Shown here one piece after another: positions 12,173 through 54,129 of a stretch of 64,000 nucleotides of DNA. The notes beneath the pieces were generated by a model. It worked only from the letters and a program-made list of their open reading frames with translations. It made no database searches and was not told the origin of the DNA. Source of the DNA: Ilumatobacteraceae bacterium (GTDB lineage Bacteria; Actinomycetota; Acidimicrobiia; Acidimicrobiales; Ilumatobacteraceae); contig JALHOG010000012.1 in NCBI GenBank assembly GCA_022843125.1, forward strand, positions 1 through 64,000, in the 5' to 3' direction. Every line of letters starts with the position of its first letter. Position 1 is the stretch's first letter. The translations under genes and the position numbers were made by a program.

Positions 12173-12176
12173 ATCA

Positions 12177-13436
12177 TCATGCGCCGGTCGAGCGACGGCG
12201 TACAGGGCCCATCGTCAGCAGCCGGAGCGCGACACCGACGGCGAGCACGATCACCCCGCCCACGACCGCGCGGAACGGGAGGCACACCACGAGGGTCACG
12301 CACCCGACGAGCCCGAGCGCGGCGACCCACCGCGGCCAGCGTCGTTCGTCACCCGTGAGCGTGAGCGCGGCAGCGTTCGTGATCGCGTAGTACGTGAGGA
12401 CGGCGACACCCGACACGGCGATCGCCGAGCGCAGCTCCAGCACCATGATCAGCACCACGATCACGCCGACGAGCGTCAACTCGGCCCGGACCGGCAGGTT
12501 GCGGCGGCCGTCGATGTGGGCGAACGCGCCGGGCAGCTCGCTGCGCCGCGACATCGCGAGCACGGTGCGCGACACGCCCGGCACGAGGTTGAGCAGCACG
12601 CCGAACGAGGCGATGGTGGCACCGATGCCGACGATCGGTGCGACGGCGTCGAGCCGCGACGCCTCCATCAGGGCCCGCAACGGCGCGTCGGTCGAGCCGA
12701 GGTCGCCGACGGGCACCGCAGCGACCGCGGTGACGCCGACGACGGCGTAGATCACGAGGACCCCGGCGAGCGCCCGGGTGATGGCACGCGGGATCGTGAC
12801 CTGCGGCTCGCGGACCTCTTCGCCGAGCGTGGCGATCCGGGCGTAACCGGCGAAGGCGAAGAACAGGAACCCGGCGCTCTGCAACACGTCGAACGCACTC
12901 GCGCCGGTCGGCTCCAGGCGGCTGAGCGACACCCCCTCCGTCGACCAGCCGGCCACCACCACGATCACCAGCGCCACCGACGTGCACGCGAGCACGACCC
13001 GCGTGACTTGCGCCGTGCGTTCGAGCCCGCCGAGGTTCACGGCCGTGACCACCAGCACGGCGGCCACGGCGACGAGGCGTTCCTGCGCCGGCCACACGTA
13101 GGCCCCGACCGCCAGCGCCATCGCCGCGCACGATGCCGTCTTGCCGACCACGAACCCCCAGCCGGCGAGGTGCCCCCAGCCGTCCCCGAGCCGATGGCGG
13201 GCGTACACGTAGGTGCCGCCCGACTCGGGGTGCAGCGCAGCGAGCTGCGCCGACGAGGTCGCGTTGCAGAAGGCGACCACGCCGGCGATGAGGAGACCGA
13301 TCAGGAGTGCCGGACCGGCGGCGGTGGCCGCAGGTGCCCATGCCGTGAAGACGCCGGCCCCCACCATCGACCCCACGCCGATCACCACGGCATCGCCGAG
13401 TCCGAGCCGGCGTTGGAGCGTTCCCGGCCCGTTCAC
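12177..13436 (-). CDS. APC-superfamily amino-acid permease
   Basis: About 419 residues from the GTG at 13436 (VNGPGTLQRRLGLGDAV). The open frame continues further upstream, but that part is Arg-rich and not transporter-like. The N-terminal helix has the APC hallmark IGVGSMVGAGVF, followed by roughly 12 hydrophobic segments including FLFFAFAGYARIATLGEE (helix 6 region) and PRAITRALAGVLVIYAVVG. It is an inner-membrane amino-acid or amine/H+ symporter or exchanger; substrate cannot be told. It is divergent from the sigma-factor gene. Confidence 0.85.
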   Translation of the reverse strand: MNGPGTLQRRLGLGDAVVIGVGSMVGAGVFTAWAPAATAAGPALLIGLLIAGVVAFCNATSSAQLAALHPESGGTYVYARHRLGDGWGHLAGWGFVVGKTASCAAMALAVGAYVWPAQERLVAVAAVLVVTAVNLGGLERTAQVTRVVLACTSVALVIVVVAGWSTEGVSLSRLEPTGASAFDVLQSAGFLFFAFAGYARIATLGEEVREPQVTIPRAITRALAGVLVIYAVVGVTAVAAVPVGDLGSTDAPLRALMEASRLDAVAPIVGIGATIASFGVLLNLVPGVSRTVLAMSRRSELPGAFAHIDGRRNLPVRAELTLVGVIVVLIMVLELRSAIAVSGVAVLTYYAITNAAALTLTGDERRWPRWVAALGLVGCVTLVVCLPFRAVVGGVIVLAVGVALRLLTMGPVRRRSTGA

Positions 13437-43868: not shown

Positions 43869-43883
43869 GTTCCTTATGTCGAA
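43869..43883. other. candidate attL
   Basis: GTTCCTTATGTCGAA here and GTTCCTCATGTCGAA at 54036-54050 differ at one base; the last 8 (ATGTCGAA) are identical and cover the start of the bL37 gene. The integrase gene begins 90 bp inside. Confidence 0.65.
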
Positions 43884-43960
43884 TAGTACACACGGCGTAG
43901 AGAGGCAAAACCCCAGGTAGATCGCCTGGTGTGTGTGACTACACAGGTTGACGTGTGTAC

Positions 43961-43966
43961 TACAAT
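43961..43966 (+). promoter_or_regulatory. -10 box of the integrase gene
   Basis: TACAAT lies 6 nt before the integrase ATG, so transcription should start at or next to the start codon. No consensus -35 is seen at 16-18 bp. Confidence 0.5.
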
Positions 43967-43972
43967 GACCGC

Positions 43973-44905
43973 ATGGCCGACGAGACGACGCTCCGGAACA
44001 TTGTCCTGACGACGAAGCCCAGCGTTCGCCCGCTCGTCGAGTCGTGGGTTCGTTCCCTGCGGGCAGACGGCAAGTCGCACCGGACGATCGAGAACTACGC
44101 ACTGGCGGTTCGTGCGGTGACGGACTGGGCCGACGAACACGGCGCACCGCTCGACCCCGCCGAGCAGACGACGGACCACCTGCGGCGCTTCATCGCCGAC
44201 GAGCTTGAGCGCAATGCCCGGTCATCGGTTGTGCTCCGCTTCCGGTGCTTGCAGCAGTGGTTTCGGTGGCTGATCGCCGAGGATGAGATCGACGTCTCGC
44301 CGATGGCGAAGATGTCGGCGCCGAAGCTGACCGAGACGGTGGTCCCGGTCCTGTCAGATGAGCAGCTCCGCAACCTCCTCGCGGCGACCTCCGGGCGTGA
44401 CTGGCTCGACCGGCGCGACCACGCCATCATCCGCACATTCGTCGACACCGGCATGCGCATGGGCGAGCTGGTAGGGCTGCGCCTGGTGGACGTCGACCTC
44501 GACCACCAAACGCTGCTCGTGCTCGGCAAGGGCGACCGGTACCGGCTGACGCCGATTGGTGACAAGACCGCGGTTGCGATCGACCGATACATCCGTGCAC
44601 GCGATCGCCGGCCGCACGCATCGTCGCCGATGCTGTGGCTCGGCACACGCGGCACGCTCGGCACCAACGGCGTCGGAGTCATGCTCCGCTCCCGTGGCGC
44701 ACAAGCGGGCGTCGACGATCTACACGCGCACCGGTTCCGCCACACGGCCGCGCATCGTTGGCTCGCTGCAGGCGGCGGCGAAGGGGATCTCATGCGCATC
44801 GCTGGATGGAAGAACCCCGCCATGCTCCAGCGCTACGGCCGCAGCGCCGCAGAGGAACGGGCACGCGACGCACACAAGCGTCTCAAGCTGGGGGATTCGC
44901 TGTGA
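43973..44905 (+). CDS. int: tyrosine integrase of the element
   Basis: A 310-residue phage-type recombinase. The N-terminal core-binding domain has SWVRSLRADGKSHRTIENYA. Catalytic residues are all visible: Arg in TGMRMGELVGLR, Lys in VLGKGDRYRLTP, HxxR in LHAHRFRHTAAHRW, Trp in IAGWKN and Tyr in LQRYGRS. It should catalyse integration at, and with a directionality factor excision from, the bL37 site. ATG 43973 is favoured over GTG 43955 by the -10 box at 6 nt. No obvious excisionase gene is present, though one of the small unknown genes could be it. Confidence 0.93.
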   Translation: MADETTLRNIVLTTKPSVRPLVESWVRSLRADGKSHRTIENYALAVRAVTDWADEHGAPLDPAEQTTDHLRRFIADELERNARSSVVLRFRCLQQWFRWLIAEDEIDVSPMAKMSAPKLTETVVPVLSDEQLRNLLAATSGRDWLDRRDHAIIRTFVDTGMRMGELVGLRLVDVDLDHQTLLVLGKGDRYRLTPIGDKTAVAIDRYIRARDRRPHASSPMLWLGTRGTLGTNGVGVMLRSRGAQAGVDDLHAHRFRHTAAHRWLAAGGGEGDLMRIAGWKNPAMLQRYGRSAAEERARDAHKRLKLGDSL

Positions 44906-45348
44906 CCCGGTCAGAGTTCGCCCTGATGACTGACGATGGTGGGCGACCTGTGAAGCGCGTGAAGTGCCCCGGCTGCGGTCGCGTCGTGGCGTGGGCGTTC
45001 GCATCAGGTGCAGTCGGTTGCGTTCTCTGGCACGTCAAGGAGCGAGGGCTTCGGCGTCGCGAATGGGTGAGGCAGGAGTCCGACGAGCAGGCAGTGTTGG
45101 TCACGCCGGCCGAGGAGGGGATGCGCGCAGCTCACGGCGGAGGGGTTGACAGCCACGTCTTCTGGTTCCGTTGGGACGAGCCGATGGTGACTCCACCTCA
45201 AAGCTGCTGTGGCGATGGCGTTGCTGTGGCGACCTGCGGGAAATGTCACGTCAGCTATGACCTCCGAGACGTTCACGCGGCGGTGAACTCGATGGTCCGG
45301 AACCGGCGGGAGTCGATCAAGCTGCGCACCCGCTTTGATACGCTGTAG
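44902..45348 (+). CDS. element protein with zinc-ribbon motifs
   Basis: A 148-residue protein whose GTG overlaps the integrase stop (GTGA). It has VKCPGCGRVVAWAF near residue 17 and SCCGDGVAVATCGKCHVSY in the C-terminal half, two Cys pairs that could bind one Zn. The middle is Arg/Glu-rich (KERGLRRREWVRQESDEQ). I do not recognise a family. Coupling to the integrase suggests a role in recombination or regulation, which is inference. Confidence 0.65.
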   Translation: MTRSEFALMTDDGGRPVKRVKCPGCGRVVAWAFASGAVGCVLWHVKERGLRRREWVRQESDEQAVLVTPAEEGMRAAHGGGVDSHVFWFRWDEPMVTPPQSCCGDGVAVATCGKCHVSYDLRDVHAAVNSMVRNRRESIKLRTRFDTL

Positions 45349-45440
45349 CTAACTGACGTCGCCTGTACGACCCCAGTGGTGACGCCCGACAGCCAGTCGG
45401 GACGCCGAGGTCGACGATGATGCACCGAGGATGGGCAGCG

Positions 45441-45461
45441 GTGAACCCGAAAGGGGTTCAC
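45441..45461 (+). promoter_or_regulatory. hairpin in front of a small element gene
   Basis: An 8-bp perfect stem, GTGAACCC (45441-45448) and GGGTTCAC (45454-45461), with a GAAAG loop, ends 5 nt before the ATG at 45467. The purine run AAGGGG that could act as ribosome site lies in the loop and right arm, so folding may control translation. Confidence 0.5.
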
Positions 45462-45466
45462 TCCTC

Positions 45467-45727
45467 ATGCCCACACCTCAGCAACGTGGCAGCCTTGGCG
45501 GCCACATCCGGTGGTCGCGGACCGTCAACCGAAGCGCAGCCACTCGCCCCGCTCGCGAGAAGTCGCCCGCCTCCGTGGCGTACTGGCTCGACAAGCTCGG
45601 CCCCGAGTTCAACGAAGCCACCGACGCGCAGCGACACGCCGCCGCGGAGTCTGCCAAGAAGGCCTACTACGCCCGCCTGAGCCTCAGGGGCGTGCAGGCA
45701 CGCCGCGGGAAGGCAGGCGCCGCATGA
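45467..45727 (+). CDS. small basic element protein
   Basis: An 86-residue protein from ATG 45467 (ATG 45431 is possible but lies before the hairpin). It is basic, with GSLGGHIRWSRTVNRSA, a helical SVAYWLDKLGPEFNEATDAQ, and AAAESAKKAYYARLSLRGV. It resembles small conserved phage or actinobacterial proteins of unknown role; DNA binding is plausible from charge. Stop overlaps the next ATG (ATGA). Confidence 0.6.
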   Translation: MPTPQQRGSLGGHIRWSRTVNRSAATRPAREKSPASVAYWLDKLGPEFNEATDAQRHAAAESAKKAYYARLSLRGVQARRGKAGAA

Positions 45728-45897
45728 GGCCCCCTGACGCGAAACGACCGGCGCCTCGGGGGAGTACGCCGGCCTGTCCAAACGCCGTGGGAAGCGTCGA
45801 TGGCAGCTCCGACGATATCAGATCCACGCAACTTGTTGGTTGCGTTTTCGCCTGCTCGGCTCCGTGCTGGCGCTGTCCGTCAGTGGTGGCGTCATGA
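45724..45897 (+). CDS. possible 57-residue element protein
   Basis: The frame begins with an ATG overlapping the previous stop (ATGA) and ends with a TGA overlapping the next ATG (ATGA). This arrangement at both ends favours a real coupled gene. Composition is less convincing: RPPDAKRPAPRGSTPACPN, then LVGCVFACSAPCWRC. The frame also contains a 7-bp stem, ACGCAAC/GTTGCGT at 45826-45845 followed by TTT, which could instead be a terminator in a non-coding gap. Confidence 0.35.
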   Translation: MRPPDAKRPAPRGSTPACPNAVGSVDGSSDDIRSTQLVGCVFACSAPCWRCPSVVAS

Positions 45898-46349
45898 CCC
45901 CGGCATGCCGCGTGTGCGGCGCGAGGGAATCACTGCGCCAGGCGCTCGCTGTTCATCTGTGCGTTGATTGCTGGTGGGACACGTTCGGCGAGGCGCACGC
46001 CCGCCACGAGCTTGCGCGCCACGGCCACGGCACGATGCTCCAGACCGGCCGCAAGCGTCCCGACTTCGGCAACGCGTTCGCTGACTGCACGTGCACCGCG
46101 TGCAGTTATCAGGCGGTCGCACCGGTTGGTGAGCCGTGCGGCCCGTGCGTCGCCTCCGCGGAACAACAGCGGGCGTGGCAAGCCGAGAAGGTACTCACGC
46201 CGCCCGACATCGACCCCGACGACCGCAACCGTGACGGCAGGCTCAAGGCGTGGGCCGAGCGACTGGCTCGCGCCGTCGCCGCTGAGCTGATCACCGAGGC
46301 GCAGGCGCGCATGGTGCTCAAGCGGGAGGTGCGTCATGCAGCAGCCTGA
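45894..46349 (+). CDS. Cys-rich element protein
   Basis: A 151-residue protein. The N-terminal ACRVCGARESLRQAL plus HLCVDCWWDTF gives a four-Cys zinc finger. A second cluster follows in DCTCTACSYQAV and CGPCVASAEQQ. The C-terminus is helical (LKAWAERLARAVAAELITEA). It sits just before the RepA-like ATPase and overlaps it by 14 nt, so a role in element replication is likely. ATG 45894 is preferred to TTG 45840. Confidence 0.65.
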   Translation: MTPACRVCGARESLRQALAVHLCVDCWWDTFGEAHARHELARHGHGTMLQTGRKRPDFGNAFADCTCTACSYQAVAPVGEPCGPCVASAEQQRAWQAEKVLTPPDIDPDDRNRDGRLKAWAERLARAVAAELITEAQARMVLKREVRHAAA

Positions 46350-47361
46350 CTCACCGCTCGACGTGTTCGATCGAACACTCGGGGCAGAGAGCCACGACGC
46401 GCCCATCACCCCGGCCGAGATGATCCGCTCGAAGCTGGTCACCACCGATCAGCTCCGCGGCATGCCGCGACCGCAACCGTTGATCGACGGGTGGCTCAAC
46501 CTCGACTCACTCGCGATGGTGTACGGGCCGAGTGGTGGCGGCAAGACGCACGTCGTGATGGATATCGCCAACACGGTCAGCGCCCGCCGGTTCTGGCACG
46601 CCAACGCGGTCACGAACGGTGGCGTGCTGTACGTGCTCGCGGAAGGCGCCCCAGGTGCCAGCCTGCGCGTTACGGCGTGGGAGAGGCACCACGGCGTCAC
46701 ATCGGCGGTCACGTGGCACCCCGGCGCAATCAGCGTGTTCTCCGACGCATGGGCGGCAGGACTCGCCGAGGTCGTCGCCGAGCTGCGCCCGGTGCTCGTC
46801 GTCATCGACACCTACGCCCGCGCCACCGTCGGCATGGAGGAAAACGGCACCAAGGACACCGGCATCACCGTCGAGCACCTCGACATGATCCGCCAGGCCG
46901 CAGGGTCGTGCGTGCTTATCGTCCACCACGCCGGGAAGGACGTCACCAAGGGTGCTCGCGGGAACAGCGCGCTCAAGGGAGCGATGGACACCGAGATCGA
47001 AGTCGTCGGTGGCGACGGTCGGATCAAGGTCAGCAACACCAAGCAGAAAGACGCACCTGAAGCCGCGCCGCTGCACTTCAAGCTCACCCCGGTACCGGAC
47101 ACCGACTCCGTCGTCATCGAGCAGGCCGGAGCGCGCATCGAAGGCGACGACCTGACTGCGGCAGCATTCGACACCCTCAAAGCGCTCCGCGACATCGACG
47201 TCACCGAAGGCGTGTCCGCAACAGCATGGCGAGCCGCCGCCGACGCCACCGAGCGCACGTTCTACCGGCACCGGTCAGGACTGCTCCAGCACGGCCACGT
47301 CGTCAACATCGGGACCGACACCAGACCCCGATATCGGCCCGTCGACGAGGTCGAGGAATGA
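46336..47361 (+). CDS. RepA-like AAA_25 ATPase/helicase
   Basis: A 341-residue RecA-fold ATPase. Walker A is YGPSGGGKTHVV, Walker B VLVVIDTYARATVG, with EENGTKDTGIT and VLIVHHAGKDVTKGARGNSA as in RepA/GP4-type hexameric helicases of plasmids and phages. A C-terminal region (GVSATAWRAAADATERTFYR) looks like a winged helix. It probably drives element replication. Comparable ATPases are found in phiRv1-like elements and satellites. Its stop overlaps an ATG at 47358. Confidence 0.85.
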   Translation: MQQPDSPLDVFDRTLGAESHDAPITPAEMIRSKLVTTDQLRGMPRPQPLIDGWLNLDSLAMVYGPSGGGKTHVVMDIANTVSARRFWHANAVTNGGVLYVLAEGAPGASLRVTAWERHHGVTSAVTWHPGAISVFSDAWAAGLAEVVAELRPVLVVIDTYARATVGMEENGTKDTGITVEHLDMIRQAAGSCVLIVHHAGKDVTKGARGNSALKGAMDTEIEVVGGDGRIKVSNTKQKDAPEAAPLHFKLTPVPDTDSVVIEQAGARIEGDDLTAAAFDTLKALRDIDVTEGVSATAWRAAADATERTFYRHRSGLLQHGHVVNIGTDTRPRYRPVDEVEE

Positions 47362-47387
47362 ACGGGGACGAGGTGCCACCAATGCCT

Positions 47388-47459
47388 TTCACTGCCAGCC
47401 CAAGGGCTGCTGGCAGTGAAGACATGTCATTGGCACTGCCAAAGACATGTCATGGCAGT
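47388..47459 (+). promoter_or_regulatory. cluster of inverted and direct repeats between repA and the next gene
   Basis: TTCACTGCCAGC (47388-47399) and GCTGGCAGTGAA (47409-47420) form a 12-bp inverted repeat. Direct repeats of AGACATGTCAT occur at 47420-47430 and 47443-47453, each with the palindrome GACATGTC. ACTGCCA (47435-47441) and TGGCAGT (47453-47459) add another inverted pair. The density suggests an operator, replication iteron set or RNA switch. Confidence 0.55.
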
Positions 47460-47489
47460 AAATCCCGCCTCCCAACAAAGGAAAGCACC

Positions 47490-47861
47490 ATGACCCGCAA
47501 ATCCACCGAGCCGATTCCGACCGACCATCCGGCGTGGCGACGGCTGTATGAGTCGTACGCGTGGGCGATCCCGAGGCGAAGCATCGCGGCCGATGCTGCG
47601 ACGATGCGGGACGTCGCCTCGTCGTTCGACGAGTTCATTGGCGCGTTCCGGTGCGGCGCGTTGCGGGCGGCGCCGTGGGTGCAGACGGATGGGCTCTACA
47701 TCGACGTGGAGCTGCGGACCGTCGACGGGTGGGTTCCGGTGGTCCGCACTCATCATCTGAATCTCGGGCTGGAGCTTTCGGAACTCGCCGCGGATGCGTG
47801 GCTCGCCGATCAGCTCGGCCGCGTCGATATCGACGTTCCCGACGTGCCACCCGCGGCGTGA
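47490..47861 (+). CDS. hypothetical element protein
   Basis: A 123-residue protein from ATG 47490, which has an AAAGGAAAG ribosome site. A start at ATG 47358, overlapping the repA stop, would add 44 poorly conserved-looking residues encoded by the repeat cluster. It has HPAWRRLYESYAWAIPRRSI, ATMRDVASSFDEFIGAFR and ELSELAADAWLADQLG. No family is recognised. It is the last gene before the structural operon promoter. Confidence 0.6.
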   Translation: MTRKSTEPIPTDHPAWRRLYESYAWAIPRRSIAADAATMRDVASSFDEFIGAFRCGALRAAPWVQTDGLYIDVELRTVDGWVPVVRTHHLNLGLELSELAADAWLADQLGRVDIDVPDVPPAA

Positions 47862-47909
47862 GATCGTCGCCCGGTCCGGGACGCGTGGCGCCTCGCCGGA
47901 CCGGGCGGC

Positions 47910-47935
47910 ATACCCCTAGGGGTATCTGCTATAGT
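47910..47935 (+). promoter_or_regulatory. operator palindrome and extended -10 promoter of the capsid operon
   Basis: A perfect 16-bp palindrome, ATACCCCTAGGGGTAT (47910-47925), is followed directly by an extended -10, TG-C-TATAGT (47927-47935), 40 bp before the capsid ATG. The palindrome covers the expected spacer and -35, so its binder would block RNA polymerase. The TACCCC..GGGGTA core resembles CsoR/RcnR-family operators; the actual regulator is unknown. Confidence 0.7.
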
Positions 47936-47975
47936 GGGGGGTGAGGCGCCACCTCGTACAACCGAAGGACCCCCC

Positions 47976-49217
47976 ATGGCGCTTATCGACGATCTGCGCG
48001 CAACGCGCACCCAGGCCCGCTCGCGGGCCGACGAAATCCTGACCCGTGCGTCCACCGAAGGACGCGACCTCACCCCGACCGAAGCGACCGAGTACGCAGC
48101 GCGCACCGCCGAAGCCCGCGACGCTGACGACGCGATCGAGCAGCGACTCGCGGACGAGGTCGCCGAGCTGCGTGCGGCTTCGACCCGTACCGCTCACCGC
48201 GAGACCCCGACGTCACCGGTGCTCACCCGGGACCAGTCGGTTGCGGACTGGTGCCGCGGTCAAGGCCTCGTCACCCGCGACGACGTCCCGCTGTCGTTCG
48301 ATCGCTACCTGCGCGGCATGGCGACCGGTGAATGGTCCGGCGCCGATGAGGAACGTGCGCTGTCGGGCGGCACGCTCACCGCGGGCGGCCACCTGGTGCC
48401 GACCCCGCTGTCGGCGCGAGTGATCGACCTCGCCCGCAACGCAACGCGTGTGATGCAGGCCGGCGCGGTCACGGTGCCGATGACCTCCTCGACGCTCAAG
48501 CTCGCCCGCCTGACCGGCGAGGGCTCGCCCGGTTGGAAGACGGAGAACGCAGCGATCACCGCGAACGCCGATCTCAGCTTCGACGCGGTCACGTTCACGG
48601 CCCGCACGCTGACGCGTGTCGTGACGCTGTCCGTCGAACTGTTCGAAGACGCGGACCCGTCATCGGGTGACGTCATCGCCCGGTCGTTCGCGGAGCAGAT
48701 CGCGCTCGAAGTCGACCGGGTCGCGCTGCGCGGCACCGGCACCGCCCCCGAGCCTCGTGGCGTGCTGAACACCGCAGGGATCACGACCACCCCGCATGGT
48801 GCCAACGGTGGCGCCATCGCGAACTACGACTGGTGGCTCGACGCCATCGGCGCTGTCCGGAACGCGAACTTCGAACCAACTGCACACATTCAGGCGCCCC
48901 GCTCGACGACGTCGCTGTCCAAGCTCAAGGACACGACGAACGCGTACCTCGCTCGGCCCGATGGGCTGCTCCCGATGCTGTCGACCCGACAGGTTCCGAC
49001 CAACCTCACGGTCGGCACCTCGAACGACTGCTCCGAGGTCTACACCGGGCAGTGGGATCAGCTCATGATCGGCATGCGCACCGATCTGCGGATCGAGTTT
49101 CTCCGGGAGCGTTACCTCGCCGACAACCTCCAATACGCGTTCCTCGCGTATCTGCGGATGGACGTGCAAGTAGCGCAGCCCGCTGCGTTCGTCGTCGACG
49201 TGGGCGTGAGGGCCTGA
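47976..49217 (+). CDS. HK97-type major capsid protein
   Basis: A 413-residue protein. The N-terminal ~100 residues are a charged helical delta/scaffold-like region (RTQARSRADEILTRASTEG). The HK97 fold follows: LTAGGHLVPTPLSARVIDLA, VTVPMTSSTLKLARLTGEG, AFAEQIALEVDRVALRG-like helix (RSFAEQIALEVDRVALRG), GTAPEPRGVLNTAGI and IGMRTDLRIEFLRERYLADN. It builds the icosahedral head after prohead-protease cleavage. It is the first gene of the structural operon, ahead of portal, unlike the usual phage order. Confidence 0.93.
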   Translation: MALIDDLRATRTQARSRADEILTRASTEGRDLTPTEATEYAARTAEARDADDAIEQRLADEVAELRAASTRTAHRETPTSPVLTRDQSVADWCRGQGLVTRDDVPLSFDRYLRGMATGEWSGADEERALSGGTLTAGGHLVPTPLSARVIDLARNATRVMQAGAVTVPMTSSTLKLARLTGEGSPGWKTENAAITANADLSFDAVTFTARTLTRVVTLSVELFEDADPSSGDVIARSFAEQIALEVDRVALRGTGTAPEPRGVLNTAGITTTPHGANGGAIANYDWWLDAIGAVRNANFEPTAHIQAPRSTTSLSKLKDTTNAYLARPDGLLPMLSTRQVPTNLTVGTSNDCSEVYTGQWDQLMIGMRTDLRIEFLRERYLADNLQYAFLAYLRMDVQVAQPAAFVVDVGVRA

Positions 49218-49218
49218 T

Positions 49219-50340
49219 ATGGCGTGGCTGCGCCGGCGCGGGCGCAGCGAAACCCGCGCCGACCTCACCATCGCCGACGTGCTCGACCTCGACCGGCCGG
49301 GCGACTTCGCACACATCGGACAACACGTCACCGCCGATCGAGCGATGCGCCTGTCCGCGGTGTGGGCATGCGTCCGACTACTCGCTGACACCATCTCGAC
49401 GTTCCCGCTCGACGTGTACCGCCGCGCCCCGAGCGGGACTGCCGAGCAGATCGCCACCCCGCCGCTGTTCGCGTCCCCAGCGGCCGGGGTGGCACTGCAC
49501 GAATGGCTCTACCAAGTCGTCGTGTCGCTGCTGCTGCGCGGCAACGCGTACGGCATCGTCACCGCCCGCTCAGGCGCCGCGATGCGTCCGTCGCAGATCG
49601 AGATCGTGAACCCCGACCTCGTCACCGTGACGGTCGAACCCGACGGCATGGTCACCTACCGGTTCCGTGGTGTCGTGATCGACCGGGCCGACATCTGGCA
49701 CGTTCGTGCGTTCGCGTTCCCCGGCTCACCGACCGGTCTGTCACCCGTCGCATACGCGGCTGCTTCCATCGGGGTCGGGCTCGCCGCGACCCGCTACGCC
49801 GGGCAGTTCTTCGAAGAAGGCGCGCACCCGACCGGCATCCTGACGTCGCAGGACATTCTGTCCGCCGATACCGCCCTCATGGCGAAGGAACGATTCAAGG
49901 CAACCACCCGCGGCAAGCGTGAACCGCTCGTGCTGGGGAACGGCTTCACGTACGCCCCGCTGCAGGTCTCACCCGAGGACGCGCAGTTGCTCGACGTGCA
50001 ACGCTTCACCGTTGCCGAGGTCGCGCGCATCTTCGGCGTGCCACCCGAGATGATCGGCGGAGAGGCGGGCAACAGCCTCACCTACGCCAACGTCGAAGGA
50101 CGCGCGCTCGACTTCCTCCGGTACTCCGTGAACCCGTGGATCGTGCGGCTCGAGACCGCGCTCGGCCAACTCCTGCCACGCACCCACTACGTCAAGCTCA
50201 ACCCCGGCGCGCTGCTGCGTTCGACCACCGCCGAACGCTACGAAGCGCACCGCGTCGCGCTCGATGCCGGGTTCCTCACCGTCGACGAGGTCCGCGCCCT
50301 CGAAGACCTCCCCCCGCTCCCCACAGGAATCGCCGCATGA
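49219..50340 (+). CDS. HK97-family portal protein
   Basis: A 373-residue portal. Recognisable are LSAVWACVRLLADTISTFPL, LLLRGNAYGIVTARSG, YAGQFFEEGAHPTGILTSQ, and FTVAEVARIFGVPPEMIGGE near residue 270. It forms the dodecameric DNA-entry ring at one capsid vertex. It begins one base after the capsid stop and its stop overlaps the protease start (ATGA), so the genes are tightly coupled. Confidence 0.93.
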   Translation: MAWLRRRGRSETRADLTIADVLDLDRPGDFAHIGQHVTADRAMRLSAVWACVRLLADTISTFPLDVYRRAPSGTAEQIATPPLFASPAAGVALHEWLYQVVVSLLLRGNAYGIVTARSGAAMRPSQIEIVNPDLVTVTVEPDGMVTYRFRGVVIDRADIWHVRAFAFPGSPTGLSPVAYAAASIGVGLAATRYAGQFFEEGAHPTGILTSQDILSADTALMAKERFKATTRGKREPLVLGNGFTYAPLQVSPEDAQLLDVQRFTVAEVARIFGVPPEMIGGEAGNSLTYANVEGRALDFLRYSVNPWIVRLETALGQLLPRTHYVKLNPGALLRSTTAERYEAHRVALDAGFLTVDEVRALEDLPPLPTGIAA

Positions 50341-50849
50341 CCCTCGAAGTCCGCACCGCCACCACCACCCTCGAACTCCGCGACGACGGCCGCACCCTCG
50401 TCGGGCTCGCCGTCCCGTACAACGTCGAGACCCGCATCGGCTCCTACGTCGAGTCGTTCGCACCCGGAGCGTTCGACGGCACCGACCCCGCCACCGTCCC
50501 CGTGCTCGCTGCGCACAACAGGACCGAGCTCCCCATCGGCCGAGCACTGTCGCTCACCGACACCCCCGCCGGTCTCGCCGTCGAGCTGCGCATCAGCCAA
50601 ACCGCTTACGGCGACGACGTGCTCGCCCTCGTCCGTGACGGCGCAGCGACGGGCCTGTCGATCGGGTTTCAACCCGTCGAGGGTGGCGACCGCTGGAACC
50701 GGGACCGGACCAAGGTGACCCGCACCCGTGCCAACCTCGTCGAGATCAGCGTCGTGGGGTTCCCCGCCTACCTCGACGCACGCATCGCCGCGGTCCGCAC
50801 CGCGCTCCACCACCACACGCCGAGGCTCACGCTCGCCCGCTTGCGATGA
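50337..50849 (+). CDS. HK97-family prohead protease
   Basis: A 170-residue maturation serine protease. It shows LVGLAVPYNVETRIGSYVES, FAPGAFDG, catalytic His in VLAAHNRTELPIGR, and catalytic Ser in GAATGLSIGFQP, with RANLVEISVVGFPAY completing the fold. It trims the capsid N-terminal region during head assembly. Starts within the portal stop and overlaps the HNH gene start. Confidence 0.92.
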   Translation: MTLEVRTATTTLELRDDGRTLVGLAVPYNVETRIGSYVESFAPGAFDGTDPATVPVLAAHNRTELPIGRALSLTDTPAGLAVELRISQTAYGDDVLALVRDGAATGLSIGFQPVEGGDRWNRDRTKVTRTRANLVEISVVGFPAYLDARIAAVRTALHHHTPRLTLARLR

Positions 50850-51199
50850 GGCTCGCACGCCCCTGCCTGGCCTGCGGTCAGCCCAGCCGCAACGGCCCAC
50901 GCTGCGAACAGTGCGCTCCACGCACCACGACCGAACGCGGCTACGGCGCAGCATGGCAACGCCTCGCCCGCAACGCCATCGCCCGACAGCCCTACTGCTC
51001 GACCTGCGGTGCCACCGACGACCTGACCGGCGACCACGTCCACCCGCTCGCCCGCGGCGGCACGATGCACGGCTCGATCGACGTGCTGTGCCGCTCGTGC
51101 AACAGCCGCAAAGGCGCCGCCAGTTCTGACCACGCAGCACCACGCATGACCCTGTCAGGCCGAGAGCCGATCACACACCGTGGCGAGGCGATCGCGTGA
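50846..51199 (+). CDS. phage HNH endonuclease
   Basis: A 117-residue HNH nuclease. Cys pairs in CLACGQPSRNGPRCEQC and YCSTCGATDDL flank the HNH core TGDHVHPLARGGT and LCRSCNSRKG. HNH proteins encoded beside TerL in HK97-type phages are needed for DNA packaging. Here it may also stand in for a small terminase, which is otherwise missing. Overlaps both neighbours by 4 nt. Confidence 0.92.
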   Translation: MRLARPCLACGQPSRNGPRCEQCAPRTTTERGYGAAWQRLARNAIARQPYCSTCGATDDLTGDHVHPLARGGTMHGSIDVLCRSCNSRKGAASSDHAAPRMTLSGREPITHRGEAIA

Positions 51200-52647
51200 A
51201 GGCCGGACCCAAAGCCGCGGTCCGTTCCGACCCGCTCGACCTCGACGACCTCCCCGCGTCCGGTGCCGAACGCGTCGCCCAGTTCATTGAGCGCTACGTC
51301 GTCACACCCAAGGGCACCGGCGCACGGCAGGCGTTCCACGTACGACCCTGGCAGAAGTCCCTCATTGCGTCCGTGTTCGACGATCCCCGCCCCCGCCTCG
51401 CCCTCTGGGCGCTCCCACGCGGGAACGGCAAGAGCACCATCTCCGCGGCGCTCGGCCTCTACGGCCTCCACGGCGACAACGAGGAAGGCGCCTCCGTCGT
51501 CGTCGTCGCCGCCGACGAACGACAGGCCGGCATCGTGTTCAACACCGCCGTCCGCATGACCCAGCTCTCCGACCCGCTGCTCGAACGAACCCAGGTTTAC
51601 AAAGACCGGCTCTACGTCCCTGCGACGGGCTCCACGTTCGCAGTGCTCCCCGCCGAACCGCACCGCCTCGAAGGTCTCGACCCGTCACTCGCGATCATCG
51701 ACGAAATCGGCGTCGTCGATCGCCGCGTGTTCGAAGTCGTCGCGCTCGCCGCAGGCAAACGCGCACAGTCCCTCACCCTGTGCATCGGCACCCCGTCACC
51801 CGACCCCGAACAGTCCGTGATGAACGACCTCCGGCGCCAAGCGATCGAAGCACCCGACCCAAGCTTCGCCCTCGTCGAATACACCAGCGACCCGACACAC
51901 CCTGTCGACTGCGAACACTGCTGGGCACTCGCGAACCCCGGCCTCGACGACCTGCTCCACCGCGACGCCATGCTCGCCCTCCTCCCACCCCGCACCCGCG
52001 AGTCGACGTTCCGCCGCGCACGGCTCGGCCAATGGATCGACCAAGTCCCCGAACCCTGGCTCCCACCAGGAACATGGGACACGCTCACCACCGCCCGCAC
52101 CATCGACGACGGCGCCGACGTCGTGCTCGGATTCGACGGCTCCCACAACGGCGACTCAACCGCCATCGTCGCCGCCACCATCGACCCCGTCCCGCACCTC
52201 GAAGTCGTCGCGTGCTGGGAACGAACCACCGACACCCCAGCCGACTGGCAAGTGCCAATCGCCAACGTCGAGCAGACACTCCGCGACGCCTGCGCCCGCT
52301 GGCAGGTCCGCGAGATCGCCGCCGACCCGTTCCGCTGGGCCCGCACACTCCAAACCCTCGACGCCGAAGGCCTCCCCGTCGTCGAGTACCCACAGACCCC
52401 CGCACGCATGACGCCCGCCACCACCACGTTCTACGAAGCGGTCACGAACAGCACCGTCACGCACAACGGCGACCCCCGCCTCGCCCGCCACATCGCCAAC
52501 GCCACCGTCCGCACGGACGCCCGCGGCACCCGACTGAGCAAGGAACACAAGCACTCAGGCCGGCGCATCGACCTCGCCATCGCCGCCGTCATGGCCCACG
52601 ACCGCGCCGCGGTGCACTCGACGCGGTCAGTTCTTCAGGTGTGGTGA
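51196..52647 (+). CDS. large terminase subunit
   Basis: A 483-residue packaging motor. The ATPase domain has the Walker A-like LPRGNGKSTIS and Walker B LAIIDEIG. The RNase H-like nuclease domain has Asp residues in LGFDGSHNGDSTAIVAA, IAADPFRWA and RRIDLAIAAVMAHD. It translocates DNA into the prohead and cuts genome ends. It is last in the operon, whereas in canonical HK97 phages it comes before portal. Confidence 0.93.
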   Translation: MKAGPKAAVRSDPLDLDDLPASGAERVAQFIERYVVTPKGTGARQAFHVRPWQKSLIASVFDDPRPRLALWALPRGNGKSTISAALGLYGLHGDNEEGASVVVVAADERQAGIVFNTAVRMTQLSDPLLERTQVYKDRLYVPATGSTFAVLPAEPHRLEGLDPSLAIIDEIGVVDRRVFEVVALAAGKRAQSLTLCIGTPSPDPEQSVMNDLRRQAIEAPDPSFALVEYTSDPTHPVDCEHCWALANPGLDDLLHRDAMLALLPPRTRESTFRRARLGQWIDQVPEPWLPPGTWDTLTTARTIDDGADVVLGFDGSHNGDSTAIVAATIDPVPHLEVVACWERTTDTPADWQVPIANVEQTLRDACARWQVREIAADPFRWARTLQTLDAEGLPVVEYPQTPARMTPATTTFYEAVTNSTVTHNGDPRLARHIANATVRTDARGTRLSKEHKHSGRRIDLAIAAVMAHDRAAVHSTRSVLQVW

Positions 52648-52654
52648 CTCGTGT

Positions 52655-52834
52655 TCAGGTTCCGAACACCGGATTCGCCGGGCGCCGCGTGTACTCGCCG
52701 CACCAGTCGTCCTCGCTCACATGCGGCCAGATCGCCACGTGGCCGGAATCGGAGGGGAGTGGCGCATTCCGCCGACACTGCTCCTCCTCCGGCTCGTAGA
52801 ACTTGCACGTGTCACATCCCGCGATCTGGCTCAT
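52655..52834 (-). CDS. 59-residue Cys-rich protein of the element
   Basis: Read on the minus strand from ATG 52834: GCDTCKFYEPEEEQCRRNAP, then AIWPHVSEDDWCGEY and a short tail. Four Cys (7, 10, 20, 45) fit a compact Zn or Fe site. I believe related small proteins, with a CxxC start, a third Cys and a WP..DWCGE end, are widespread in phage and bacterial genomes without assigned function. It ends 8 bp past the terminase stop and is the only element gene on this strand. Confidence 0.65.
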   Translation of the reverse strand: MSQIAGCDTCKFYEPEEEQCRRNAPLPSDSGHVAIWPHVSEDDWCGEYTRRPANPVFGT

Positions 52835-52942
52835 GCAGGAACCCTACGACACGCCTACGGTGTCGACGGCGTAGTTGGCGGCTGGCCGCATTCAAGTTGC
52901 TGGAACACCGGGCCGATCCGTACGGTTGGACAGTGTCACACC

Positions 52943-53024
52943 CTTGTGCACAAGATGCACACAGTTAACCCACAAGACAATCCACAGGGTGTCAACATGA
53001 CTAAGCTTCCGTTTGGGGAAGCTT
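52943..53024 (+). promoter_or_regulatory. palindrome and hairpin upstream of the cargo pair
   Basis: CTTGTGCACAAG (52943-52954) is a perfect 12-bp palindrome. An 8-bp stem, AAGCTTCC (53003-53010) and GGAAGCTT (53017-53024), lies 22 nt before the ATG at 53047. This AT-richer stretch is the likely control region for the following genes. Confidence 0.5.
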
Positions 53025-53046
53025 GCGAAGCGGGGAGGTTGCAGCC

Positions 53047-53250
53047 ATGACGATCGAGACACTGAGGCGGAACGAGGACACGGTTGAGGAAACCATGACC
53101 GATGCCGACGTCCACGCGGCCGTTGCCGCGCTTCTGTCGGCCGCCGGTGCCACGTTGGATGAACTTCGTGCACAAGCGGTGGTCGGCCGATTTGCCAGCG
53201 AGCAGCATCGACGTGCGTGGTTTGTGATCAGGGGCCTCGGGCACAGCTGA
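53047..53250 (+). CDS. small helical protein, first gene of the cargo pair
   Basis: A 67-residue protein with a GGAGG ribosome site 8 nt upstream. The core DADVHAAVAALLSAAGATL is followed by AVVGRFASEQHRRAWFVIRG. Small proteins with a similar RF.SE..RRAW end recur, to my recollection, in actinobacteria next to a ~220-residue protein like the one that follows. Function unknown; an antitoxin-like role is only a guess. Confidence 0.6.
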   Translation: MTIETLRRNEDTVEETMTDADVHAAVAALLSAAGATLDELRAQAVVGRFASEQHRRAWFVIRGLGHS

Positions 53251-53265
53251 CAGGGCACGCCGAAC

Positions 53266-53940
53266 TTGCCGGGCGAGTCTCTCGCTGATCAGGCGCGCAT
53301 CTTCGCGGACCAAACGTCGGATCTACTGAATCACACGGTTACGAACGGTGTGCGTATCACCGCGGTGACGACGCAGGCCGGATTCCGCGTCATGGGTATG
53401 GGCGTCAAGGCGTCCGACCCTGACGCAAAGCCGATCGCGGTCGCAGTCCGGGGCAAGCCTCTCGTTTGGCTGTACCTGATACACACATTCGACCTCGACC
53501 CCGAGGGTCGGTACCTCACGATGTTGGCGAGCACCATGAGCGTGTACACGTCTGAAGACATGACCAGCGACGAACTCGTCCTCGGCATCGACTACGTCCG
53601 CGAACCAGCCAACCAGTACCCGGGTTGTCACCTGCACGTCTCCGGGGCCCGGGATGACCTAGATCGCATCTATCGCGGCGATGGACGCGACTCACGGAAG
53701 CTGCGCGACCTCCATCTTCCCGTTGGCGGCCGGCGGTTTCGTCCGTCGCTGGAAGACCTCATCGAGTTCATGATCACCGAGGAGATGGTCGAACCCCGCC
53801 CAGGGTGGAGCGATGTCGTCAAACAGCACAGAGAACGCTGGGAAGAGATCCAAGTCAAGGCGGCAGTGCGTCGGCATCAGGAGCACGCGGCCGTTGCACT
53901 CCGGAACGAGGGGTGGAGCGTAACGCCGCCGTCGCAGTGA
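53266..53940 (+). CDS. conserved hypothetical protein, second gene of the cargo pair
   Basis: About 224 residues from TTG 53266; the start is uncertain. A beta-rich N-terminal half (GFRVMGMGVKASDPDAKPIA, VWLYLIHTFDLDPEGRYLT) leads to YPGCHLHVSGARDDLDRIY and the well-ordered LHLPVGGRRFRPSLEDLIEF, then EEMVEPRPGWSDVVKQHRER. The HLHV...LPVGGRRFRPSLED pattern I associate with an actinobacterial family of unknown function. Its position between terminase and attR is where satellites and prophages carry accessory genes. Confidence 0.6.
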   Translation: MPGESLADQARIFADQTSDLLNHTVTNGVRITAVTTQAGFRVMGMGVKASDPDAKPIAVAVRGKPLVWLYLIHTFDLDPEGRYLTMLASTMSVYTSEDMTSDELVLGIDYVREPANQYPGCHLHVSGARDDLDRIYRGDGRDSRKLRDLHLPVGGRRFRPSLEDLIEFMITEEMVEPRPGWSDVVKQHRERWEEIQVKAAVRRHQEHAAVALRNEGWSVTPPSQ

Positions 53941-54028
53941 ACGGCTGCCGATCTGTGTGTCCTACGATAACCACATCGGTTCGACCCGACCTGCCGATGA
54001 CCTGGTGGGATCCCTTTGGCCACACCGG

Positions 54029-54034
54029 TAGCGT
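54029..54034 (+). promoter_or_regulatory. element-borne -10 box for bL37
   Basis: TAGCGT sits 8 nt before the bL37 ATG. It matches in position the TAGACT at 43860-43865 on the other side of the element. A poor -35 (TGGGAT, 54006-54011) lies 17 bp upstream. Confidence 0.5.
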
Positions 54035-54035
54035 G

Positions 54036-54050
54036 GTTCCTCATGTCGAA
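54036..54050. other. candidate attR
   Basis: GTTCCTCATGTCGAA overlaps the start codon of bL37 and matches 43869-43883 at 14 of 15 bases. Confidence 0.65.
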
Positions 54051-54129
54051 GAAGACGAAAAAGCGCAAGGCCCGCCTGCGGCGTAGCAAGGCGAACCACG
54101 GCAAGCGCCCCAACATGGGCCGGGGCTGA
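54043..54129 (+). CDS. 50S ribosomal protein bL37
   Basis: A 28-residue, strongly basic protein that begins MSKKTKKRKARLRR and continues SKANHGKRPN. The ANHGKRPN ending is the mark of bL37, a ~24-residue protein found in mycobacterial 50S structures. The first two codons and part of the third lie within the candidate attR, so the element is inserted exactly at its 5' end. A peptidase gene follows 11 bp downstream in the same direction. Confidence 0.85.
   Translation: MSKKTKKRKARLRRSKANHGKRPNMGRG

Follow-up and report, generated by a model that had tools for sequence, protein, structure and literature searches.

How an element that carries its own phage head genes, and no recognizable tail genes, might be propagated is the question raised by a locus in the window studied here, the whole 64,000-nucleotide stretch of DNA from an Ilumatobacteraceae bacterium. 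We read it as an integrated, apparently intact head-making phage satellite that would depend on a helper phage to supply connectors, a tail and lysis, and we put the probability of this reading at roughly 80%.

Boundaries and integration site

The apparently intact element occupies 10.17 kb (43870-54050) and is bounded by two copies of an imperfect 14-bp repeat, TTCCT(T/C)ATGTCGAA, with 13 of 14 positions identical between attL and attR. The attL core (43870..43883, no strand assigned; TTCCTTATGTCGAA) abuts the promoter side of the chromosome (GTAGACT...), as judged from the coordinates and the bL37 upstream regions of relatives, and at the attR core (54037..54050, no strand assigned; TTCCTCATGTCGAA) the element's own promoter-like box (GGTAGCGT) precedes bL37. 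The ends proposed in an earlier note on this DNA, 43869..54050, were nearly exact. The att repeat was absent from the repeats listed by exact-repeat searches, and random interval pairs of matching sizes gave a 15-mer with at most one mismatch in 6 of 400 cases. By itself, being short and imperfect, it is modest evidence for the boundaries, and the boundary argument therefore rests on the empty site in relatives.

The element is inserted at the 5' end of the gene at 54043..54129 (forward strand), which we take to encode ribosomal protein bL37 and which is left intact as an open frame. Its homologues adjoin an S9 peptidase gene in relatives, and there the same site is empty. The empty-site synteny PolX-bL37-S9 peptidase was found in five of the eight relatives tested; compared with the attR context, the joined empty-site model gave the better alignment in only three of the eight, all of the same genus, and the worse one in five. 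A promoter and terminator scan returned no promoter-like sequence and five terminator-like ones, with 4.4 expected, and an Rfam search gave no match.

Gene content and the search for tail genes

Read from attL, and on the forward strand unless stated otherwise, the element opens with a tyrosine integrase (43973..44905, a GTG start at 43955 being possible too; PF00589 (Phage_integrase), 4.5e-24; phrog_1, 2.3e-42), whose stop overlaps by 4 nt an open frame with cysteine pairs and no significant family (44902..45348). The small element gene p3 (45467..45727, or from a possible start at 45431; phrog_2842, 6.3e-6) has homologues at 33-35% identity in L105, L066, L048 and L103, and in some relatives lies between the integrase and the replication gene. 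It is followed by an ORF without significant family (45894..46349; an earlier start at 45840 is possible) and by a RepA-like AAA_25 ATPase, the putative replication protein (46336..47361; PF13481, 8e-30; phrog_906, 4.9e-50). An ORF to which the profile searches assigned no family (47490..47861) stands directly before the gene for the HK97-fold major capsid protein (47976..49217; PF05065 (Phage_capsid), 1.9e-32), which is matched in 42 viral contigs at 61-76% identity. The head module continues with the portal protein (49219..50340; PF04860 (Phage_portal), 2.5e-77), the S78 prohead protease (50337..50849; PF04586 (Peptidase_S78), 1.4e-23), an HNH endonuclease (50846..51199; PF14279 (HNH_5), 2.8e-9; phrog_144, 1e-13) and the terminase large subunit, TerL (51196..52647; PF03354 (TerL_ATPase), 4.5e-13, and PF20441 (TerL_nuclease), 2.8e-12; phrog_9, 1.9e-98). 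Beyond it lie a 59-aa ORF on the opposite strand, without family in the profile searches (52655..52834), and two cargo genes. The first, p75 (53047..53250), is an open frame whose homologue adjoins p224 homologues in L125, L127, L128 and L129; the second, its downstream partner p224 (53266..53940), has no family, is matched in 10 of 149 genomes, its own included, and found no PADLOC family and no relative in the viral contigs.

As evidenced by these profiles, with PHROGs and Pfam-type calls in agreement, each gene named in the earlier note (integrase, RepA-like ATPase, HK97 capsid, portal, prohead protease, HNH and TerL) was correctly assigned. Its description of intact and tightly spaced structural genes also holds: the genes named are all open frames, with 4-nt overlaps at the portal/protease, protease/HNH and HNH/TerL junctions and 1 nt between capsid and portal. 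The same is true of its claim that tail, connector and lysis genes are lacking, as far as the profiles reach. None of 14 element proteins has a significant tail or connector match in PHROGs, no lysis, entry or small-terminase (TerS) gene was recognized among the element proteins, and neither an excisionase nor a repressor was recognized in the element copy studied. The closest tail-like match, that of a 75-aa ORF, reached E 0.071 for 'tail fiber' and 0.031 for 'head maturation protease' and was read as noise.

Tail or connector genes hidden among the small ORFs, a possibility raised at the outset, were found neither in the window nor in 12 relatives. In a selection of 48 downstream ORFs from these loci, no such family appeared at E <0.0019 among the best 25 of 47 families, ordered by member count and then E-value, six of the 25 having no function name. 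As a positive control, the same library detected a head-tail adaptor (5.9e-14) and a tape measure (1.3e-28) in the tailed prophage L112. A connector in the element or its relatives may be too divergent for PHROGs. The TerS profile phrog_57 matches five of the 116 non-core ORFs of relatives that were scanned out of 120 listed (best 25 of 119 and best 25 of 49 families), and at least one of these, L016:7558-8130, scores better as an excisionase.

In the host assembly (93% complete, 183 contigs) the capsid and TerL-ATPase families matched solely the element's own capsid and TerL, and PhageMin_Tail (tape measure) had no match. On the basis of these families, a helper resident in this genome was rejected. 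In a scan of ten genomes of the genus, tape-measure matches turned up in one, G003, which has two; the genus thus does contain tail genes, and no link between them and the element was found.

A family with a common head-gene order

The element belongs to a large family with a common head-gene order, known mostly from environmental DNA. We collected 109 viral contigs whose capsid or portal resembles that of the element. In 99 of them the genes follow the order capsid-portal-protease-TerL, either in full or in a part that agrees with it, and the remaining ten have the ordinary TerL-portal order; the portal search kept the best 80 of at least 572 relatives (at least 572 of 600 stretches encode relatives). 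This recurrence of one module in one order bears out the earlier suggestion that the head module is maintained. Family members carry differing integrases and replication genes. Note that ordinary phage fragments of 4-13 kb are also present among the portal matches.

In a capsid tree of 67 rows, after removal of duplicate fetches and of matches below 220 residues (L106 among those removed), the 52 class-A rows form one clade with a support of 100/96. A second tree comprised 40 rows, a match of at least 250 residues and more than 60 bits being required of new rows; the set A1 consists of the window and 19 of the 42 capsids of the capsid search. All 55 contigs of the capsid clade are 13.6 kb or shorter, a count that leaves out two distant matches (L068, 10.2 kb; L069, 16.2 kb); an identical search with the L112 capsid gave 11 contigs, four of them longer than 30 kb (Fisher p 4.6e-4 at a 20-kb cut). 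Most contigs are short metagenome pieces, so their length accounts in part for why no tail genes are seen past their ends, a limit that the L112 size control answers only partially. A full-length tailed prophage of the capsid clade, from which the element might simply derive, was looked for in the viral-contig and genome scans and not found; for G540, which gave the single close match among the genomes, 12 of 20.7 kb of the contig were covered.

Several relatives are closed, permuted or bounded. L068, a closed assembly of 10,085 bp with a 127-bp exact terminal repeat, has its integrase between protease and HNH, a capsid 36% identical to that of the element, and no tail or connector match among its five largest unassigned forward-strand ORFs; it is a distant relative and speaks for a wider kind of element. 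The ends of L175 are 94% identical over 254 bp and could be a tandem pair of copies, and L009 has the order TerL - integrase - putative replication ORF - capsid - portal - protease - HNH. Two bounded relatives measure 11,135 bp and 8,903 bp. Exact att repeats of 14 bp occur in L018 and L066 and one of 12 bp in L062, and none of at least 12 bp was found in L055, L048 or L059. A 14-bp match in L103 falls inside the integrase and is probably due to chance.

Further relatives possess an integrase and a capsid gene, with portal, protease, HNH and TerL not detected. These capsid-only elements sit in other genomes, one of them Paenibacillus; among the carriers are the culturable species Smaragdicoccus niigatensis and Streptomyces fulvorobeus. 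Long repeats bound L104, L106 and L054, and none were found for L052, L053, L105 and L107, so that four of the seven capsid-only loci are unbounded. The profile phrog_226, labelled 'minor tail protein', matches a protein of L105 (E 2e-6) and also aligns weakly (2e-4) with an ORF upstream of TerL in L111; we read the L105 protein as a possible TerS.

Known satellites and rival explanations

In the parts of the publications available to us, cf-PICIs are satellites that encode capsid, protease, portal, HNH and TerL, obtain tails from a helper and are widely distributed across Bacteria; they also encode head-tail connectors and TerS (PMC10690885, PMC11389934), and their capsids form three clades (PMC11389934). 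The element resembles them in being integrated, with an integrase, a replication gene, its own capsid, protease, portal, TerL and HNH, and no tail genes, but differs in having no head-tail connectors or TerS identifiable by profiles. For this reason it is set apart from the published descriptions although it would work like a cf-PICI, and it may overlap with actinomycete members already predicted. Of the earlier assignment to this type, the tailless, capsid-encoding, satellite-type character and the conserved head module stood, while the gene set departs somewhat from that of a cf-PICI.

MulchRoom and MiniFlayer, described in the available part of PMC10690885 as Streptomyces satellites that themselves encode a capsid, a portal and a terminase, share this equipment and an actinomycete host with the element. 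The MulchRoom record (OQ784832) has 14.8 kb, an integrase, no annotated tail genes, 1.6-kb terminal repeats, neither protease nor primase annotated, and the order TerS-TerL-portal-scaffold-capsid-adaptor-stopper-integrase; the element does not have this protease-less arrangement from TerS to stopper. Some Mycobacterium candidate PICIs and phiRv-like elements have helicases and terminase, and the element's head order is absent from the available part of their description (PMC10654092). The tailed prophages L111 and L112, from the same family or order, have a homologous portal about 40% identical to that of the element, but in a TerL-portal...capsid order, with adaptor and tail genes in L112 and a weakly supported tape measure (4e-4) in L111.

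Decay of a prophage, with loss of the tail and lysis genes and chance survival of the head module, would account for head genes of the tailed-phage kind, and for a portal 40% identical to those of G045 and G122 (same family or order), at loci with tape-measure-like genes. We nevertheless consider it very improbable: one reduced gene set, arranged in one non-standard order, recurs across 99 of the 109 contigs alongside differing integrases and replication genes; the frames are intact and the boundaries precise; and the viral-contig and genome scans found no full-length tailed prophage of the capsid clade (12 of 20.7 kb read for G540). A deletion-derivative prophage was rejected on the gene-order census and the contig-size control.

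It is likewise very improbable that the element travels in shells made by a helper and that its own capsid protein, instead of building a whole head, interferes with helper assembly or alters its size. In favour of this, the capsid-only relatives do retain a lone capsid protein; against it, interference alone would not explain the tight overlapping block of portal, protease, HNH and TerL genes in the element. The lack of connector or tail genes in the class-A ORFs scanned (best 25 of 47 families) and the assembly of the distant relative L068 as a closed 10-kb molecule would fit an autonomous tailless HK97-fold virus or gene-transfer particle independent of any helper. This we regard as very improbable, as no lysis or entry gene was recognized in the element; the portal is the tail-docking vertex of HK97-fold phages, and we know of no such phage that infects without a tail.

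For the head-making satellite we infer mobilization, small heads, a helper and the borrowing of its tail. Upon infection by or induction of a tailed phage, the integrase would excise the element from the bL37 start region and the RepA-like ATPase would aid its replication. The element's own capsid and portal proteins would build a small procapsid, to be matured by the S78 protease and filled with element DNA by TerL and HNH, and the helper would contribute lysis as well as the connectors and tail that would dock at the satellite's portal. Upon integration, expression of bL37 should be preserved by the promoter-like box that the element carries.

We also propose, tentatively and with more doubt than confidence, that the element is one branch of a large superfamily of satellites, extending from actinomycetes to Bacillota, whose capsid genes are interchangeable. 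In this view a lineage of capsid-only elements, made up of integrase, replication genes and capsid, would have been the source of the class-A capsid, and at least two distant capsid lineages would have been joined to a portal-protease-HNH-TerL block that lacks connectors. If this holds true, head-complete satellites arise by adding parts to small elements and not by the shrinking of prophages, and satellite portals plug straight into helper-made connectors.

The wide occurrence of satellites that make heads has been described before; the novelty would lie in a family that combines a fixed head order of its own, no recognizable connectors or TerS, and swapped capsid genes. Such a family would lower the minimum gene set for a head-making satellite and would predict helper phages with connectors that fit a foreign portal, and the order capsid-portal-protease-TerL on short elements would be a marker for finding such satellites. 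The capsid-only relatives raise the testable question of what use a lone capsid gene is to a satellite.

The element at its integration site

The element is delimited by attL (43870-43883) and attR (54037-54050) with a core-to-core length of 10,167 bp, and its G+C content is 67.2%, versus 68.6% in the remainder of the window. The left part holds the gene for a tyrosine integrase, then three small ORFs, the gene for a RepA-like AAA_25 ATPase and another small ORF; the head block follows, in the order capsid (HK97), portal, protease (S78), HNH and TerL. After TerL, a 59-aa ORF on the opposite strand and a two-gene cargo pair complete the right end. As evidenced by profile scans, the gene set proposed in the earlier note (integrase, RepA-like ATPase, capsid, portal, protease, HNH and TerL, without a recognisable tail) is correct, and no tail, connector, lysis or TerS families were recognised among the genes of the element. 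The cargo pair, p75 and p224 (53047-53940), likewise matched no family in these scans. Matches to p224 occur in 10 of 149 genomes, the host's own included, and p75 lies directly upstream in four fetched loci.

The right end of the element coincides with the start codon of a gene with an open frame of 28 codons, which we take to encode the ribosomal protein bL37. Eight relatives have this gene immediately before one for an S9 peptidase, and in three more it holds that position on the opposite strand of their locus. In five of the eight relatives tested, the PolX-type gene that flanks the element on the left in the window lies upstream of bL37, with no element between the two. The element seems to have brought a replacement promoter, because the box retained on the attL side resembles that of same-genus relatives (GTAGACT), and the one on the attR side, GGTAGCGT, is also present in some relatives from other genera. 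This reading is an inference: over the 40 bp preceding the ATG, identity to the relatives is 10-18/40 for attL and 12-22/40 for attR, and in alignments a joined empty-site model beat the attR context in the three same-genus relatives and lost in the five others.

Relatives in viral contigs

A search of IMG/VR with the capsid protein retrieved 42 contigs with 61-76% identity to the window capsid, and a capsid profile search returned these and 15 more. Of the resulting 57, 55 form a close capsid clade (at least 57% identity), the distant pair being L068 (36%) and L069 (29%). Phage records matching the window capsid number 65, every one below 60% identity, with the 20 listed at 24-30%. From at least 572 relatives in a portal profile search we took the best 80, of which 52 were new, yielding 109 contigs for a census of gene order. 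Here, 62 show capsid-portal-protease-TerL, 21 capsid-portal-protease, 12 portal-protease-TerL, one capsid-portal, one capsid-portal-TerL and two a permuted form (L009 and L175), so that 99 of 109 are consistent; the other ten have the ordinary order, TerL-portal. As integrases of both tyrosine and serine type occur and the replication genes vary, the relatives are a modular family rather than a single clone.

Several of these contigs have recognisable ends. L018 spans 11,135 bp between 14-bp repeats at the end of one gene, presumably glnA, and L066 is bounded by a different 14-bp repeat at 8,903 bp. In L055 the integrase adjoins a tmRNA gene, and no right repeat was found within the contig. 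L068 has an exact terminal repeat of 127 bp and a closed length of 10,085 bp; in profile scans five of its unassigned ORFs gave no tail or connector match, and one of the five matched a sigma factor. The ends of L175 agree at 94% across 254 bp. In six contigs (L009, L059, L063, L140, L162 and L164) an integrase follows TerL, as it would in a circular form. Note that L059 (153-13234, with a tRNA-Ala at 12173-12246) has an integrase gene at each end; tandem elements are therefore also conceivable, and this contig is possibly two elements side by side.

Three further observations concern individual genes. A terminase stretch in the 63.8-kb viral contig L136 (10001-10627) is 54% identical to residues 265-472 of the window TerL, and this match suggests that terminase parts may be exchanged between satellites and larger phages. 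Several full-head contigs (L137-L145) have a capsid whose match to the window capsid is confined to a short stretch at the N-terminus; these may represent a third capsid lineage occupying the same slot. Between capsid and portal, many contigs of the window capsid's clade have a conserved small ORF whose product has a basic tail (L018:6260-6412; pattern DLGPxSxTFIAKGDPIPPELA); this ORF is missing from the window element, and a similar ORF follows the capsid in the Streptomyces locus L053.

Satellite or fragment of a tailed phage

None of the 55 contigs of the capsid clade exceeds 13.6 kb, nor do any of the best 80 portal relatives. The control was the capsid of prophage L112, whose host belongs to the same order and has a complete genome; the same search with this capsid yielded 11 contigs, four of them at 34-44 kb. 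Profiles identify L112 as a genuine tailed prophage, with matches to capsid (1.3e-31), head-tail adaptor (5.9e-14), tape measure (1.3e-28) and minor tail protein (8.5e-31). Nine of the best 80 portal relatives have the ordinary order and are fragments as long as 13.1 kb, so satellite and ordinary phage are not separable by length alone.

From the window and 12 relatives we also scanned 48 ORFs that lie downstream of the capsid gene and outside the core set. They matched 47 PHROG families at ≤0.05, and the best 25 of these by member count and then E-value (the last at 0.0019) comprised HNH, excisionase, regulator, DNA-binding, TerS and unnamed families, with no tail or connector family among them. 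A broader set of 116 non-core ORFs matched 119 families, and the 25 commonest of these include integrases, primases, excisionases and regulators as well as HNH and TerS. Ten more large or unassigned ORFs scanned singly yielded no tail family, but integrase, TerL, excisionase or regulators instead, and one ORF of L059 gave weak portal and TerL matches (0.007-0.008).

Capsid-only loci and the place of the family

More distant relatives of the window capsid, at 36-58% identity, occur in seven loci that also encode an integrase: L052 (Smaragdicoccus niigatensis), L053 (Streptomyces fulvorobeus), L054 (Paenibacillus artemisiicola), L104, L105, L106 and L107. Whole-locus tblastn (E 0.01) with the proteins of the window element and its relatives detected portal, protease, HNH or TerL in none of the seven. 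When 20 proteins from six of these loci were scanned against profiles, no portal, protease or TerL emerged either, save for a weak portal match (1.5e-4) of a nudix-like protein; the scans did identify replication genes in L104, L105, L106 and L054 and a TerS in L107. A protein of L105 (8396-8818) matches phrog_226, 'minor tail protein'. This label is possibly wrong and the protein may be a small terminase, because it weakly matches the ORF upstream of TerL in prophage L111. Clean att repeats bound three of the seven loci, L104 (8,156 bp, at tRNA-Leu), L106 (7,535 bp, at tRNA-Ala) and L054 (9,062 bp).

In the capsid tree, the head-gene elements of the window capsid's type form a single clade (100/96) with L052 as the nearest capsid-only relative (97/89). 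A second, distant capsid lineage has the same portal-protease-TerL block; the deeper branching order is uncertain, with long branches. Head-making satellites and integrase-plus-capsid elements of actinomycetes are known kinds (PMC10690885, PMC11389934, PMC13345588, PMC10654092). The first of these papers mentions predicted Actinomycetota PICIs, with which the present family may overlap. By title and abstract, in a coverage without most subscription journals, we recognised no description of the family. The window element is real, bounded and apparently intact, and a member of a conserved family; most likely, it is a capsid-encoding satellite that obtains its connectors and tail from a helper.
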